This document shows positions 1,079-59,977 of a DNA stretch of 64,000 nucleotides, in pieces. The translations under genes and the position numbers were made by a program. The notes under the pieces were generated by a model that was not told the DNA's origin, did not search any database, and saw only the letters and a list, made by a program, of their open reading frames with translations. Position 1 is the first letter of the stretch; each line of letters starts with the position of its first letter. Source of the DNA: Phorcus lineatus (taxonomy: Eukaryota > Mollusca > Gastropoda > Trochida > Trochidae); the NCBI GenBank assembly GCA_921293015.1, contig OV121092.1, positions 44,353,064 to 44,417,063 of the forward strand. Direction: 5' to 3'.

Positions 1079-4000
1079 AGATGTGCATAAAATGTGAAAA
1101 AATATGGACAGTTGCAAATGGCCGAACTAGAAATGTGCGCAGCTTTTGAATTTGATTAAACTCCGAAATGTGAATAACGGATACAATCTTGTAATCTAAC
1201 CGATTTTAAGAAGGGGGTATAATCATTGTTATTGGATACGGCTGTCGTTTTCGCCCTTCCGGCTGTAAGCAAAATTGAATATTCCGATATCGAAGTTTTT
1301 GCAGATTTATTGCAAAGTTGCAATAAATACTTCCGATCTTTTAAAATCCTCTTGATAACCTAAATACGTAAATACTATATATTTGTTAAATAATTCTCGA
1401 TGTAGATTACCTGGGTGCGGATCGTTTATGATATATAGAGATATGCATGACTTGTGTATTCATTGTATATACAAAATTTGGTGTGCACTAGTGCCTTTAA
1501 AGCATCTTTGCTCTTGAAGGGTTAAAGTTATACGCGGATTTGTTTTATCAATTAATGTTTTCCGATTTATGTACATGTGAAATGAAGTAAAGAAACACTT
1601 TGAAAAATGATATTGTCGATGGGCCTGTACGCCTATCTGTAACTCAGCAAAGCGAATCTGTCAATTCTTTTACGTATATCAAGGGACAAAGGCACCGTCA
1701 CCTACAAAAATGAAACAGGAGCCAAATAATGAAATCTATGAAATTACAAACATTATTCTGATTTTGTTTTGAGTTTTGTTGCTTTAGAATTCCCTCAACT
1801 AGTGGAGATATGAGACTGAAGTCAGACATTTTAAAAATATGTTTTATGACTTTCTACATTACTGATGCGTTAACCATTGAAAGTCCAAGAAGAAAAGTTT
1901 TCAAGAACACCATTAACTTACATTACATCAATATTTCATAATGTTTACACAAGTCGTAAACATTTGGAAAATTCATATCGACAACCCTTGTTAGCTTCTG
2001 TGCAGAAATACAGAAGTTAAAAGACTGTAGCCTGATAATTCAAAATGTATACACATCCCTACAGAACATGTGTCAATCAAAATAATTTAATTTTTTTATT
2101 TGTTTATGTAAACATTATGTCACAGCAGAATTTTTTGACTGTCCAGCTTTTTGCATTGTAAACTTACGTATTATAAATGATATATCGTTCAAAGGTCAAT
2201 CATTCACAAAATCTTATCCCGTGGAAAGGAGACAATATGAAGTCTAACGCCGCTTTCCAAAGTATTTTACTTGACGACATAGATCATTGCGGCGGAAAGC
2301 AAAGCATGCCATCATGAAACTGCCAACCATCGTTCACATTGCATTAAAATCAGATCTTATCCAAACGTATGTTACGCTATTTTCTTGCTGAAGTAACCGA
2401 ACCCAAGGATTTGGACACTCTTACAGGTCGACAATGCCTGCTGAAATCACAACGGACATGTATAACGATTTAAAGTCAAACCACGAGGTCAGTGCGTATG
2501 CAAGAGTTACCCTTGTGGTTAAAAACTGAACAGGCCAGTAAGAGTTAACAGAATTTCTCTCAGATCAGAAGAAAGAGGTGTCAATCAGGAGATAAACTTC
2601 AGAAAGAGGTATTGATTATGGTTGGTCCTGTGGTCAAGCAGAGTGAAGATGACATACACCGTGAAAGGGGAGTCTACTTTATGGTCAATATTGGGACACC
2701 ATCAATTGACCTTAACTGACATTTACACTCTAGACTTACGTTAGCCAATTTCACATGGTCAAGGAGTTTATAGAGAGTGTTAGGTACTGAAATGTTGTCA
2801 GTTGGGGTTACTGTTGTCCAGTGCACGTTCATTGATCTGGAGCCAGAGAGTTGGACATAAAAGAAGTTCCGCTATTTTCGTAATTGTGTTAAAGACTCGT
2901 GCTTGATTCTTTATGTTTGGTTTTGTTTTGCAAAGATTTATTATTGAAACTTTATTCTAATTGTATTGTTTAGCGTTGATATTACCAATTAAAATAACCA
3001 TTGTTGTGCTTGTTTCTTAATTATTACATTGTATTTCATTTTATTTTCTAAATAATTTTTGACTGTTGGCCTTGTATAAGTAAACAGTTTATTCTTTGGC
3101 ATCAGAAGTCTTATTGTTTGATAGTTATGTTGACAGTTGTGTGCCAAATGAACTCAACATCATCAATTCCACCCCGGTCAAGTTATTTTGAAGCAGTGGT
3201 CAGAGAGTGTGAAAATATCATAGAGTTGGATATCGGAAACCGCTAGCCCGTTAACGGCCATTGACCAGAAGATACAAATGACCAGTCTTCTTTTTAACGA
3301 TGTCGGCAATGTCTCACGGTACATCTTGTGTGTCTTTTTATATCTTTGTATCAACCATCCCATGTGTACAAATTCAAGGTCTCATTATTGTATGTCACTA
3401 TTTTCTCACCTTTTCTAATCATGAATGCTAAATCGGTCTACCCCTCCTAAGATTTCCAACGCAATTAAGACAGGTTCAAGGACGTGGTACTCACTGTCAT
3501 GAAATATTGTTGCGGACTTTCTCCCTGCAATTATATACTAGCAGGCGTGTTATATGAGAAATACTATTGAAATCGACGTTAAACCCCAAATCACTTCACA
3601 TTTCTTTATAACCGAAGACCAATGTTTATCTAATTTATCGTATCGTAAACAGATTATTGAAGATGATTCAAGGAATACGCAATGGATGAAATAACAATTA
3701 CTATGATTAAAAAAGCTTAACTATTTCACATACGAAAACTGGTCACTTTTCACTTCCAAATGTCACTTAGATAACGTCATATTCTAACACTTAATTAACA
3801 ACAGATTTTACAGCCTTTAAAATACATTACATAAACTTTCAAAATGTTAATACCTATTTATTTCAAAGCAAATTCTTACATTTCAATATTATGCAATCAT
3901 CGTAATCTTAGGAACACAATATGCCTCAAAATACCTAGAAACATCACTGAAAGGCTTTTAAAGAGAGTTATGCTTTTTATATAATTGCTTTATGTGAGCA

Positions 4001-7190: not shown

Positions 7191-8140
7191 AATATATCAT
7201 TTGCTCGAGCTTGGTTGATTACAAGGTTCCGTCCGTAATGTGTATTTGGTGACAGTTTCACGTTATATGTCACTAGTCAAAGACAATGACTTCATACTAG
7301 ACGTTCACAACACGCGAAATATCCATTGCCGTCTGACAATATTGATCTTATCTTACATGTTATCTTAAATGCAGTTTACCAACAGATTGCCGAAATGTGA
7401 CATAAGATATTTCGAAAAAATATATATAGTACTGGTTGAAGAATAAATGCAGTTTGCTGAATTATGATTATTATCAGTACATATCTCAGTTGCAAACATC
7501 GTGTTATTCGATTATCAACCAAAGAAATATTACAAATTCCCTTTGACTCGAAAGCAAAAAGTGTACGCGCCTCTGTTAGGTAGATATTCATCAGTTGACG
7601 ATCCGTTACAATGATTTTGATTTTTACATGTTTAATAATGTCAATTTAGAAATATGATAACTAAACATAGGTATCTGCTAAAACGATCTTTCTCACAGAG
7701 TCCAAGGACAATGGTGAACATTAAAAATACACTCCTCAATTGGTTTCTACATGAATTGAAATCTAACTAAAAGTGGTTCAGTAATTTTTGTTGTATCCGG
7801 TGTGTTGGTTGTTGGCTGAATAGTTTACAGTATATAAGGTGAAAAGTAGGTCTTCTGTGTGCAAATAATGGAAAGGATTATCCAAGCATCATTATACGGG
7901 GTTTAGCGTATTGTCATACCTACTACTTAAATGATCTTTTAAAGGATTTGTTTTCTTGTGAAAGAAGTGGTAATCTCTACGGATATTGTTGTCAGCTTTA
8001 ATAGACAACGATCAGGTTTTAATCACATGAACTGGATTCCTTGTTCCATTTGAGTTTGGTATCAATAGCTCACACATTAGTCAAGTTTCATTACAGAAAA
8101 AAACATTTCACTTATTAAGTTATTTATTGAGAAAATGCGT
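7191..8140. other. Intergenic sequence, nothing recognised
   Basis: AT-rich, between two minisatellites. No supported coding frame. Confidence 0.5.
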
Positions 8141-9590
8141 TCATGCACACTCACGTTCGTGCACCCTCATGTCCTATGCACTCTCTCGTTCATGCACCCT
8201 CACGTCCTTGCACCCTCACGTTCATGCACCCTCACGTCCAAGCAGTCTCACGTTTAGTACTCTCACGTTCATGCACTTTCATGCACCCTAACGTTCATGC
8301 ACTCTCACGTTCATGCACTCTCACGTCCATGCACCCTCACGTTCATGCACCCTCACGTCCATGCACCCTCACGTTCATGCACCCTCACGGTCATGCACCC
8401 TCACGTCAATGCAGTCTCACGTTCATGCACCCTCATGTTTAATTCTCTCACGTTCATGCACCCTCACGTTCATGCACTCTCACGTTCATGCAGTCTCACG
8501 TCCATGCACCCTCACGTTTAGCACTCTCACGTCCATGCAGTCTCACGTTTAGTACTCTCACGTTCATGCACTTTCATGCACCCTAACGTTCATGCACTCT
8601 CACGTTCATGCACTCTCACGTCCATGCACCCTCACGTTCATGCACCCTCACGTCCATGCACCCTCACGTCCATGCACCCTCACGTTCATGCACCCTCACG
8701 GTCATGCACCCTCACGTCAATTCAGTCTCACGTTCATGCACCCTCATGTTTAATTCTCTCACGTTCATGCACCCTCACGTTCATGCACTCTCACGTTCAT
8801 GCAGTCTCACGTCCATGCACCCTCACGTTTAGCACTCTCACGTCCATGCACCCTCACGTTTAGTACTAACACGTTCATGCAGTCTCACGTTCGTGCACCC
8901 TCACGTTTAGCACTCTCACGTTCATGCATCCTCACGTTCATGCACCCTCACGTTCATGCAGTCTCACGTTCATGCAGTCTCAAGTTCATGCACCCTCACG
9001 TTTAGCACTCGCACGTCCATGCACCCTCACGTTTAGTACTAACACGTTCATGCAGTCTCACGTTTAGCACTCTCACGTTTAGTATTCTCACGTTCAGTCA
9101 GTCTCATGTTCATGCCATCTAACGTTCATGCACCCTCACGTTAATGCACTCTCACGTTCATGCAGTCTCGCGTTCATGCACCCTCACGTCCATGCACCCT
9201 CACGTTTAGCACTCTCACGTTCATGCACCCTCACGTTCATGCACCCTCACGTTTAGTATTCTCACGCCCATACACCCTCACGTCCATGTAGTCTCGCGTT
9301 CATGCACCCTCACGTTTAGCACTCTCACGTCCATGTACCCTCACGTTTAGTATTCTCACGTTCATGCACCCTCACGTCCATGCAGTCTCGCGTTCAAGCA
9401 CCCTCACGTTTAGCACTCTCACGTCCATGCACCCTCACGTTCATGCACCCTCACGTTTAGTATTCTCACGTTCAGTCAGTCTCACGTTCATGCCATCTAA
9501 CGTTCATGCAGTCTCATGTTTAGTACTCTCACATTCATGCAACCTCACGTTTAGTACTCTCACGTTCATGCACCCTCACGTTCATACGCA
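8141..9590. repeat. 16-bp minisatellite with 295-bp higher-order repeat
   Basis: About 1.45 kb built from variants of CACGTTCATGCACCCT. CACTCT, CAGTCT and TTTAGTACTCT subunits are interspersed. A block beginning CGTTTAGTACTCTCACGTTC at 8251 recurs at 8546 with its following order preserved, giving a higher-order period of 295 bp. Because 16 is not a multiple of 3, each frame reads the same 16-residue peptide cycle, so several overlapping frames stay open by composition. These frames are not taken as genes. Confidence 0.95.
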
Positions 9591-40817: not shown

Positions 40818-42180
40818 GAAAAGAAGAAAATGTCATAATTTTGGCATTAAATAGATAAAAATGAAACTTAACTCTTGGCATTTGATATTTTGGCTCTGTC
40901 TTAGCCACATACAAATTTCAATATGTTATACAAATTAAATGCGTTACTTTAAGGTTTCCATGGGTACTCGAGCACACCAGCACGAGTCTTGTACAGCAGG
41001 ACTTGATTTCAATTTCTCTATTTTATTCGAAGTGTATATAATGTTTTCAAGACAGATTATTAGTTTAAAGCATTTAAATGTGAGAAAACTCTAATCATGA
41101 GAAGGAAACCAGAAGTTTGTGATGATATCTCAATCATTTCGAAAACAATCGACACTACAGCTTACTTGTGAGTTTATCTAAGTATCTCTCTGTCTCTGTT
41201 TGCATTGCAAATGATAATTGTCGCTAATCGATACCATCATGAATGGCGTTTTTCAAAGAATCTAAAACGGAAATTTCTTAATTTGAACACTGAACAATGT
41301 AGTCACACAGCACATTATTATCTACTTGAAAACCTCCAGGTGTTACGACATTCTATTACGACAGCGGTCCTAACTTAAATAAGTTAAAGTTGGAGCAACT
41401 CTGTTACAAGTGAGAGACGTTTCTTGGTTCTATCAAATTTTCCTTGTGGTGAAATTTTTGCAGCACAGATACCAACCTTATCGTTCCAATCAATTTTCGT
41501 TTTAAATCTCAAACTGAATTTTATGTGAAAGAAAACATGTGCGCAACGTACAAATGAAGAAAGCAAGGTTTTCGACGGTTGCGGACAGAACGTTCAGTTT
41601 GAACCAACGATGTTAATTGCATGGCTACCTTAGAACGCAACGCAATTAGGAATCTGTATTTGTATCCAACAAACTGTTCTATTTGTTAAAAAGATTTTGT
41701 TAGTAACATGAGATAAAAAATAAACGAAAAGCCGCTGTCTAAAGACAATTGTGATTGTGAGCACTGTGTGTGGACCCGGGCAGCTCTATACTTCAATGAG
41801 ATACACACATGGGCATTCTAATTTTTTTTACCTATCTTGAAAAAATGGTTGTATTTGGCAATCAAATACGTTTTAAAAACTAAACCTGGTGCACTGTTCG
41901 TGATCAAGAGTTCATGAACACGTTTTCTAATGTATAACATACGATACAAACGTTTTATGCTAAAGGTTTACAGATCCATTACACGTGGACTGCAACGTTC
42001 GTTTGCCAACAAAACTACCAATATGTAACGTTTTGAGATTGAGACAGATTCAATCTCAATAAAATGAAATCTAAAATGCTCCACTACATTACGCGTGTAT
42101 ATTCTGCGTAACATAGTGCAGCAATATTAGATTTTATTTTAATGAGATTTGGACAAAATGATATGAATGAGTTAGAAGCT
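40818..42180. other. AT-rich intergenic sequence
   Basis: Nothing recognised. GAGACGTTTC at 41408 superficially recalls a hammerhead core, but the partner motif is missing. Confidence 0.5.
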
Positions 42181-42191
42181 CTCGTATAATT

Positions 42192-42362
42192 AAGAAATGA
42201 ATTTCATCATATGGTTGTCCACACGGTTATAACCTGTTTGAAACTTGTAAGATAAACTTGTATAACCGGCAAGCTTGCGACGCCGGTTATACAAAAGTTT
42301 ATCTTACAAGTTTCAAACAGGTTATAACCGTGTGGACAACCATATGATGAAATTCATTTCTT
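42192..42362. repeat. 171-bp palindrome, copy 1
   Basis: The arms of about 80 bp are identical apart from a 2-bp indel (AAACTTGTATAACC versus AAACTTTTGTATAACC). They face each other across a short spacer that itself contains GCAAGCTTGC. The palindrome would form a long hairpin in RNA or a cruciform in DNA. Confidence 0.9.
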
Positions 42363-42845
42363 ATAAATTCAAACGTTGTATTTAAAGCGAAAATGCATTC
42401 GAAATGCAATTCTATAGCTGCTTGTCGCACTGACCTACGTACCGGTTACACCAAGACGGATCTCTACCCGTATTCAGACGCATAAACAAAATAGTTCCAA
42501 AGACTCGGTAAAAATGACACTTTTTTATTCTACAAATAATACATTTTGTGTATCAAAAAACTAACAATGATTATATTTTTGGAAAAAAGTGGAAAATGTA
42601 AAGTTTAATTTAAATAGATCAAAGTTAACAAATAACACTCGCGTATTTATACTGTCCAGAATCTAGGTGACAGTACAGCGTGTTTTGGCTAGTTCCGGCA
42701 CGATATCGTATAACCTGCATTTACTGAATGTTATTTTGTATAACCCTCAACTTTGGGTTCATTGAAATGTATACCGATCACATGACCATGTCTGATCCAA
42801 TCAGAATGCAGCATATCGTTTACATCACAAAGTCTGAATTTATTT

Positions 42846-43016
42846 AAGAAATGAATTTCATCATATGGTTGTCCACACGGTTATAACCTGTTTGAAACTT
42901 GTAAGATAAACTTGTATAACCGGCAAGCTTGCGACGCCGGTTATACAAAAGTTTATCTTACAAGTTTCAAACAGGTTATAACCGTGTGGACAACCATATG
43001 ATGAAATTCATTTCTT
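42846..43016. repeat. 171-bp palindrome, copy 2
   Basis: Second copy of the same palindrome, at the start of the second 654-bp unit. Here the preceding GAATTTATTT also resembles the reverse complement of the bases after the right arm (TTATAAATTC), so the symmetry extends slightly further than in copy 1. Confidence 0.9.
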
Positions 43017-43509
43017 ATAAATTCAAACGTTGTATTTAAAGCGAAAATGCATTCGAAATGCAATTCTATAGCTGCTTGTCGCACTGACCTACGTACCGGT
43101 TACACCAAGACGGATCTCTACCCGTATTCAGACGCATAAACAAAATAGTTCCAAAGACTCGGTAAAAATGACACTTTTTTATTCTACAAATAATACATTT
43201 TGTGTATCAAAAAACTAACAATGATTATATTTTTGGAAAAAAGTGGAAAATGTAAAGTTTAATTTAAATAGATCAAAGTTAACAAATAACACTCGCGTAT
43301 TTATACTGTCCAGAATCTAGGTGACAGTACAGCGTGTTTTGGCTAGTTCCGGCACGATATCGTATAACCTGCATTTACTGAAGGTTATTTTGTATAACCC
43401 TCAACTTTGGGTTCATTGAAATGTATACCGATCACATGACCATGTCTGATCCAATCAGAATGCAGCATATCGTTTACATCACAAAGTCTGAATTTATTCT
43501 CGTATAATT

Positions 43510-46406: not shown

Positions 46407-55368
<8,962 letters not shown>

Positions 55369-59500: not shown

Positions 59501-59977
59501 TTGTCATCCAATACAGAATAAAGAGGTTGTCATCCATAACATGATAAAGAAGTTATCATCCATAACAGAACAAAGAAGTTGTCATCCATAACAGAATAAG
59601 AAAGTTGTCATCAATAACAGGATAAAGAAGTTGTCATCCATAACAGAATAAAGAAGTTCTCATTCATAACAGAACAAAGAAGTTGTCATCCATAACAGAA
59701 CAAAGAAATTGTCATCCATAACAAAACAAAGAAGTTGTCATCCTTAACAGGATAAAGAAGTTGTCATCCATAACAGAATAAGAAAGTTGTCATCCATAAC
59801 AGAATAAAGAAGTTGTCATCAATAACAGAATAAAGAAGTTGTCATCCATAACAGAATAAAGAAGTTGTCATCCATAGCAAAACAAAGAAGTTGTCATCCA
59901 TAACAGGATAAAGAAGTTGTCATCCATAACAGAATAAAGAAGTTGTCATCCATAACAGGATAAAGAAGTTGTCATCA
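59501..59977 (+). repeat. 26-bp minisatellite, about 18 copies
   Basis: The unit is about AGAATAAAGAAGTTGTCATC plus CATAAC, repeated with few changes (GAACAAAG, GGATAAAG variants). The array lies in the last MLH1 intron seen. The unit nearly matches the tail of the hammerhead-bearing relic at 63123-63182 read on its minus strand. Confidence 0.9.

Follow-up and report, generated by a model that had tools for sequence, protein, structure and literature searches.

A palindrome-ended 654-bp element found as a tandem dimer in Phorcus lineatus is probably a non-autonomous Crypton

The window, a 64,000-nt stretch of contig C19 of the Phorcus lineatus genome, contains a head-to-tail dimer of a 654-bp unit which we interpret, with a probability of roughly four in five, as a short non-autonomous Crypton (a tyrosine recombinase element) that would enter via a circle, with dimers resulting from a second or a dimeric circle. 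The ends of the element, clean empty sites, a target made of inverted half-sites, the likeness of this target to the joined ends and dimers at five loci were all observed directly, as were a recombinase fragment in a longer sibling, one coding relative with this architecture and palindromes next to two further recombinase relatives. The superfamily, left unassigned in a previous sequence-only reading of the window, can be assigned, as the sibling (L056) and the coding relatives are tyrosine recombinase elements.

Results and discussion

Structure of the tandem dimer

The window dimer consists of two 654-bp units in direct tandem with a period of 654 (Table 1), differing only at T42729 in unit 1 and G43383 in unit 2, of which G is the family consensus. 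This confirmed the earlier description of a near-identical tandem pair, as well as the lack of the flanking repeat at the internal junction. The flanking direct repeat, estimated previously at about 11 bp, is present and flush with the dimer, but its true length is 10 bp (TCTCGTATAA); the extra bases at its right end are the leading TT of the element on the left side and a host TT on the right side. Each unit opens with a near-perfect 171-bp palindrome (P), a feature absent from the sequence-only reading, followed by a body that starts with ATAAATTC and finishes with GAATTTAT, the 28-nt ends of which are mutually inverted (75%). Exact unit limits were set from empty sites at other copies of the family.

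Table 1. Features of the tandem dimer (positions within the window)
Feature	Position	Strand	Remarks
Left 10-bp direct repeat TCTCGTATAA	42180..42189		Flush; ends in GTATAA, the left target half-site
Unit 1, TTAAG...GAATTTAT	42190..42843	+	654 bp; limits from empty sites
Terminal palindrome P, unit 1	42192..42362		171 bp, AAG...CTT; single hairpin with 11-nt loop and 2-nt bulge
Inner inverted repeat, unit 1 (ATAAATTC...)	42363..42390	+	Adjoins P; pairs with 42816-42843 (28 nt, 75%)
Outer inverted repeat, far end of unit 1 (...GAATTTAT)	42816..42843	-	
Internal junction as recombination site	42838..42855	+	ATTTAT, 7-nt spacer TTAAGAA, ATGAA; identical at five loci
Crossover at internal junction	between 42843 and 42844		
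Unit 2	42844..43497	+	654 bp
Terminal palindrome P, unit 2	42846..43016		
Inner inverted repeat, unit 2	43017..43044	+	
Outer inverted repeat, far end of unit 2	43470..43497	-	
Right 10-bp direct repeat TCTCGTATAA	43498..43507		Flush
Target spacer	43498-43503		6 nt
Right half-site of target	43504-43508		

The left flank of the dimer (42060-42150) is a partly self-complementary dispersed repeat, present at at least 38 further places at 85-96%. Unrelated repeats elsewhere in the window are a 182-bp dimer (714-1079, 97%) and tandem arrays of 16-bp units (8138-9585, 92 copies), 170-bp units (52905-54186, 7.6 copies) and 26-bp units (59501-59976, 18 copies). A ribozyme or retrozyme (hammerhead circle) origin was rejected, as none of the RNA families attained its gathering score anywhere in the window and ribozyme matches were far under the cut-off; the best matches in a permissive RNA-family scan of the window were miRNA-type hairpins.

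A recently active family of short elements

The unit belongs to a recently active mobile family. Searching the genome (958 Mb in 74 contigs) with the unit at the DNA level gave 386 candidates, of which the best 40 were scored, and a pattern for the 3′ end (≤1 mismatch) matched 312 times (163 forward, 149 reverse), with no matches for the reversed-pattern control; as a few copies have the 3′ end twice, the copy number is about 300. Excluding the inverted dimers L053 and L054 (four units), the full-length units (92 of 96) diverged from the consensus by 0.91 substitutions per unit on average (0.14%). The length from AAG to GAATTTAT in the 96 units was mostly 652 bp (68 units), followed by 681 bp (10), 664 bp (5) and others, and longer siblings have additional sequence inserted near unit position 500. 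The third unit in the adjoining stretches L047 and L055 (C5:30803004-30810731) is apparently ~7.7 kb long, and more than half of its insert consists of 48-bp and 15-16-bp tandem arrays, showing that the element can carry satellites. This unit was rejected as a coding partner on the basis of these arrays and because none of its frames of ≥80 aa was gene-like by eye.

The loci examined form a non-random sample, consisting of the 40 scored search candidates, 60 stretches picked among the 100 3′ ends that head the listing (all on contigs C1, C2, C5 and C7), four stretches around tandem junctions and relatives added later. Target counts are based on the 77 loci with exactly one full-length copy among 104 loci searched with the unit, and exclude a 78th (L048), of which the right side is a second, inverted copy; a first target profile was built on 42 sites at 40 loci.

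Five old relatives of the unit (L116-L120) were found, with clear alignment to both ends in L116 and L119 only. One new copy (L068) sits in or beside the palindrome of an old, diverged relative (flank positions 979-1191), and a genome search with this flank gave 355 candidates (best 40 scored), so that a large old superfamily seems to exist. Stretch L115 (C13:43400700-43408700), a tandem region with a period of ~5 kb and glycine/histidine-rich frames, was rejected as a candidate for coding copies of the element in tandem, being a repeated region that holds an old relative.

Element ends and insertion without target-site duplication

In the first 40 loci, every start found was TT directly followed by AAGAAATG, and every end was GAATTTAT. 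BLAST matches of >100 bp beginning in the first 29 bases, collected over the 104 loci, started at base 1 of AAG... in 106 cases and at base 2 in one, while all 119 matches reaching the far end stopped at 652. The 106 starts at base 1 were preceded by TT in 100 cases and by AT in six, and AT also precedes the inner edge of the palindrome, as in inverted dimers. Paralogous empty sites for the insertions L019 (two sites), L072, L075 and L006 showed clean entry of TTAAG...GAATTTAT, with the leading TT arriving with the element and no bases duplicated, the L006 site having one substitution adjoining the joint. Two weak or noisy comparisons (L075-L047 and L072-L047) and an insertion into an old relative (L068-L082) were not counted as empty-site proof.

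No target-site duplication beyond chance was detected in the 77 single copies, where the longest flush repeats were 5 and 4 bp, matching reshuffled flanks. Likewise, left and right junctions had no constant direct repeat in common in either the first profile or the 77 single copies, as was also the case for animal Crypton groups in the sections consulted of the report on these elements (Kojima and Jurka 2011, PMC3212892). Insertion without target-site duplication is therefore usual for this family, and the single copies rule out duplication as a general rule.

The 10-bp repeat at the window dimer is not random, since 200 reshufflings of the flanks gave flush matches of ≥8 bases at a rate of 0.01 per set of 77. 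The sequence-only reading implied that it is a target-site duplication, and a genuine duplication made as the dimer entered through a staggered break would account for a repeat that is flush, exact and improbable by chance, and has a rare parallel in a Helitron2 family in which 1 in 200 copies is so flanked, according to the passages of PMC3627910 consulted; the window site with one copy of the repeat also scores as an average target (52nd percentile of real targets). This explanation is nonetheless rather unlikely, as none of the 77 single copies has a comparable repeat, flush outer repeats are absent from the two other head-to-tail dimers with both outer ends read (L030 and L049), and the site with two copies is the better target (92nd percentile). 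The difference between the two percentiles favours a pre-existing tandem repeat over duplication, and judging from these site scores the 10-bp repeat was probably already present in the target as the source of both half-sites. Tyrosine recombinase chemistry as such gives no explanation for the repeat. An empty paralogue of the window locus was not found in the genome, where only the dispersed repeat of the left flank was matched.

The target resembles the joined ends of the element

The information content of the target in the 77 single copies was highest at A-2 (0.84 bit), T+8 (0.79), T-3 (0.64) and W+1 (0.45), with weaker contributions of R-6 and R+9 (0.29 bit each) and lower ones of T-5 and A+11, against a background maximum of 0.12. 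Mirror comparison of the two target halves at spacers of 0-15 gave a single peak at spacer 6 (2.16, best other 0.44), and no such peak was seen in direct orientation (best 0.92). The target is thus laid out as TAN and W on either side of the insertion point with a second half-site at +7 to +11, and is built of two half-sites in inverted orientation, TWTAW and its mirror image, separated by 6 bp (TWTAW-N6-WTRAA). Sites of tyrosine recombinases are described as two inverted repeats 6 to 8 bp apart in the sections of PMC3212892 consulted, and the target is of this type. In every single copy examined, the element starts at the left edge of the spacer, with the target's own 6 nt kept on the right.

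With a 20-position profile, real sites could be told apart from the background of the flanks (mean percentile 0.94). The element ends joined with a 6-nt spacer scored 9.1, higher than all 77 real targets, compared with 2.35 (32nd percentile) for the 7-nt spacing of the dimers and 0.29 for the copy of the site that lies, inverted, on the inner side of the palindrome (5 nt). Real targets therefore mirror the ends of the element, best at 6-nt spacing.

Dimers and multimers at other loci

The exact junction of GAATTTAT with TTAAG was found at five loci with different flanks, and a junction pattern search (≤2 mismatches) gave a sixth hit, which is a single copy with a target resembling the element end. 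Multimers at several loci had been anticipated, each with a distinct 10-11-bp duplication, and their occurrence in differing flanks bears this out, whereas the duplications were lacking in L030 and L049. The five exact junctions also support a circular intermediate, one of the examples named in the sequence-only reading, as the best explanation of the head-to-tail dimer. The arrays differ in composition: a 110-bp duplication and a base change are common to both units of L049, which would fit copying from a single circle as well as duplication on the spot; L047 contains three units of three different length types, which one template would not readily give, and its second junction is one T shorter (the 6-nt form); and L048 combines one truncated and one full unit with an inverted part.

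Alternatively, the dimer could have arisen once a single unit was in place, through tandem duplication or unequal exchange, or could be an assembly error; the shared changes in L049 are what a local duplication would give. We consider this alternative improbable, since flank sequence between units is absent at all five exact junctions, the L047 units differ in length type and the two window units differ by one base. A resident copy offers a suitable target at both of its edges, so stepwise entry explains the mixed arrays; uniform arrays are explained by a dimeric circle or local duplication, and the window dimer is compatible with each of these.

A tyrosine recombinase in a longer sibling and in coding relatives

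The sibling L056 has the far end of the family and an internal 96-aa frame matching the Phage_integrase domain (PF00589, E 6.1e-8), with the residues HxxR...GHK...Y, read by eye, of a tyrosine recombinase C-terminus. A genome search with this frame, in which the best 150 of 350 candidates were scored, gave eight fragments at 95-97%, followed by longer coding relatives. Within these 150 candidates, no intact recombinase gene between exactly these ends was found; in same-family copies the open frames were 96 and 131 aa long, and those longer frames that came closest were 56-67% identical over the C-terminus.

The best coding relative, L121 (C5:32180900-32184300), is 67% identical over the recombinase C-terminus and has a frame of 372 aa from the first ATG (443 aa stop to stop), with matches to DUF3504 (PF12012, 2.8e-10) and PF00589 (4.2e-6, exactly at the cut-off). 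The first H of the L056 motif is N in L121 by eye, and an upstream 108-aa frame resembles an N-terminal exon by eye, with no Pfam match over the cut-off. A PDB sequence search with the L121 frame gave nothing significant, the best match being an Int protein (E 0.65). L121 contains a 172-bp palindrome (404-575, 90% complementary); immediately after it comes a 35-bp inverted repeat (91%) of which the partner ends at 3058. This palindrome is similar in length to that of the unit, with no notable match except for ~31 bases at the inner end. The best 40 of 516 candidates from a search with the L121 end (261-bp query) comprised two full-length or near full-length matches, the second near a recombinase relative on C1, and 38 shorter ones, which indicates that the L121 family likewise has many short members. 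Palindromes were also found beside L122 (105 bp, 82%) and L123 (at least 117 bp, 92%), and hence at all three coding relatives viewed. The recombinase sequence is followed downstream by the palindrome in the sibling L052, in L121 and in L122.

The recombinase of the sibling and the architecture of the coding relative make a non-autonomous Crypton the best reading of the unit. They also argue against the rolling-circle intermediate put forward as one option in the sequence-only reading, as these elements are of the tyrosine recombinase and not the rolling-circle type. A candidate of the latter type was a non-autonomous Helentron or Helitron2 element (HINE), whose tandem dimers would represent replication running past the end. 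Read on the minus strand, the unit has a 5′ inverted repeat with its partner just before a 3′-terminal hairpin and no target duplication, which resembles the ATIR and 3′-hairpin scheme in the portions of the literature consulted, where tandem Helitron insertions and the rare target duplications of a Helitron2 family (PMC3627910) are also reported; moreover, at least one copy has long central tandem repeats and the genome gives 53 Helitron_like_N matches. The layout thus fitted, and the candidate was dropped once the sibling proved to carry a tyrosine recombinase. The targets are inverted half-sites with a 6-bp spacer instead of the Helentron TT dinucleotide, the TT at the insertion point belonging to the element rather than to a TT or T-rich site; the one Helitron-type end compared (L111-L114) has a short hairpin of different sequence, and the unit had no significant match in elements of this group (best E 0.34). 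Taken together, a HINE is highly improbable. Many of the 53 Helitron_like_N matches (L111-L114, for example) have open frames exceeding 2400 aa, and two copies compared, with the 3′ end GTCGTCGCTTGCGACTATATTT, are 99% identical over 14.3 kb, so this Helitron-type family is apparently young.

The terminal palindrome

The 654-nt stretch covering the unit has a predicted fold of -220.9 kcal/mol (z -14.3, with none of 20 shuffles as stable), and the part after P is predicted to fold no better than shuffles (z -0.28). The palindromic start is retained in all five old relatives. In an alignment of these relatives with the unit, both sides had changed in 20 of 80 pairs versus 8.0 in shuffles (none of 500 reached 20), and 83.5% of cells were paired versus 79.1% in shuffles and 34.6-43.6% with the arms slid by 1-3 columns, where the advantage over slid arms is partly expected, as the structure was taken from the unit, and the shuffle count does not represent a probability, as the six sequences are related. 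The palindrome thus appears to co-vary, being preserved by compensating changes in the old relatives.

Among 102 palindrome loops, 94 were standard with the body on the expected side and six were variants or undecided, the remaining two being L054, with body on both sides, and L076, in which the palindrome loop has the opposite orientation to the body, an arrangement expected from recombination of the outer with the inner site. Rolling-hairpin replication with flip-flop of the loop was rejected, as the predominance of standard loops, with only L076 inverted, shows that flipping is not general. L053 and L054 are inverted dimers with one central palindrome common to two bodies, both joints of L054 being of the inner type; these look as if copying had reversed direction at the hairpin, perhaps a hint of a single-stranded intermediate.

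Proposed mechanism

We propose that a recombinase supplied in trans by a longer sibling or relative would join the element ends into a circle with the junction GAATTTAT-TTAAGAA-ATGAA. This junction would recombine with similarly built genomic sites, TWTAW and its mirror image separated by 6 bp, placing the element at the left edge of the spacer with no duplication of the target. The ends of a resident copy are such sites themselves, which would allow a second circle, or a dimeric one, to enter beside it, giving exact head-to-tail dimers and trimers. The evidence for the circle consists of chromosomal junctions that resemble its joint. Features expected of Cryptons are present in that a tyrosine recombinase is encoded within the family (L056, L121), though not by the 654-bp unit itself, that target-site duplications are lacking in the 77 single copies and at the empty sites of four insertions, and that the inverted half-sites are 6 bp apart in the target and 7 bp, once 6 bp, in the element junction. 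The 7-nt spacer of the dimer junction versus the 6-nt target spacer, with the junction at only the 32nd percentile of real targets, counts against the Crypton reading, as do the lack of an intact recombinase gene between exactly these ends among the 150 scored candidates, the non-significant PDB search and the terminal repeats, which animal Cryptons are reported to lack.

If both strands were fully exchanged between a 7-nt and a 6-nt spacer, the mismatched spacers so formed could be resolved either way. The fixed side of the crossover, the hairpin at the joint, the two Ts left unpaired at the crossover of the folded strand and the compensating changes together suggest possible single-strand exchange. 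On this reading, which we consider less likely than not, the element would belong to a eukaryotic transposon lineage resembling integron cassettes, with one strand undergoing recombination in the form of a folded hairpin. Within the circle, GAATTTAT would pair with the body start ATAAATTC across the palindrome, leaving the two crossover Ts unpaired, and this pairing would allow a single strand alone to rebuild a double-stranded recombination site. Only one strand would be exchanged, with replication completing the event, so that movement would be copy-and-paste with the crossover fixed on one side of the spacer, and the compensating changes in the palindrome as well as the unrelated palindromes of sister families would be explained. 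The one-sided crossover and the co-variation of the palindrome make such an exchange a testable possibility.

Comparison with known systems

Cryptons of animals are already known, and the palindrome-ended form was not described in the literature searched by title and abstract opening. This search on Cryptons (palindromes, CryptonA, non-autonomous), with a scope mostly outside subscription journals, returned no title or abstract opening mentioning such ends, and the literature covered offers no explanation of how animal Cryptons cut, join and multiply. In the sections of PMC3212892 consulted, animal CryptonA and CryptonI elements have a tyrosine recombinase as transposition enzyme, non-autonomous copies that outnumber coding ones and a proposed circular intermediate, all of which is paralleled here with a recombinase of DUF3504 type. 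They are described there as lacking terminal repeats, whereas the elements reported here have a terminal palindrome of ~105-172 bp and an inverted repeat of 28-35 bp, together with a readable att-like site and tandem dimers.

Helentrons, HINEs and Helitron2 elements, as far as described in the parts consulted of four papers (PMC4067079, PMC3627910, PMC5148889, PMC7492417), share with the P. lineatus element the inverted repeats beside a terminal hairpin, the usual lack of target duplication, the central tandem repeats of some copies and the tandem insertions. The element differs from them in its tyrosine recombinase, a palindrome many times longer and a target of two half-sites.

The strand-biased, circularizing bacterial elements SE-6945 and SE-6283, in the sections of PMC9345347 consulted, resemble the element in using tyrosine recombinases with a 6-bp spacer and in the evidence for exchange of one strand. 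They differ in being several kb long, in having sites in which no inverted-repeat structure was detected and a circle-joint spacer that varies with the donor locus, and in that a palindrome is not described in these sections.

With about 300 near-identical copies, empty sites, tandem junctions and coding relatives, the recombination site of this family can be fixed to the base, with a terminal palindrome that is apparently preserved while its sequence changes and a target that mirrors the joined ends. Questions on excision, strand exchange and copy number thereby become directly testable. Integron cassettes likewise combine a tyrosine recombinase, a circle, tandem head-to-tail insertion and an attC hairpin at the recombination point with one fixed crossover. 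The element described here differs in its eukaryotic host, its longer palindrome and its genome-wide targets, with single-strand exchange being putative, and may represent a link between the Cryptons of eukaryotes and recombination of folded DNA as in integrons.
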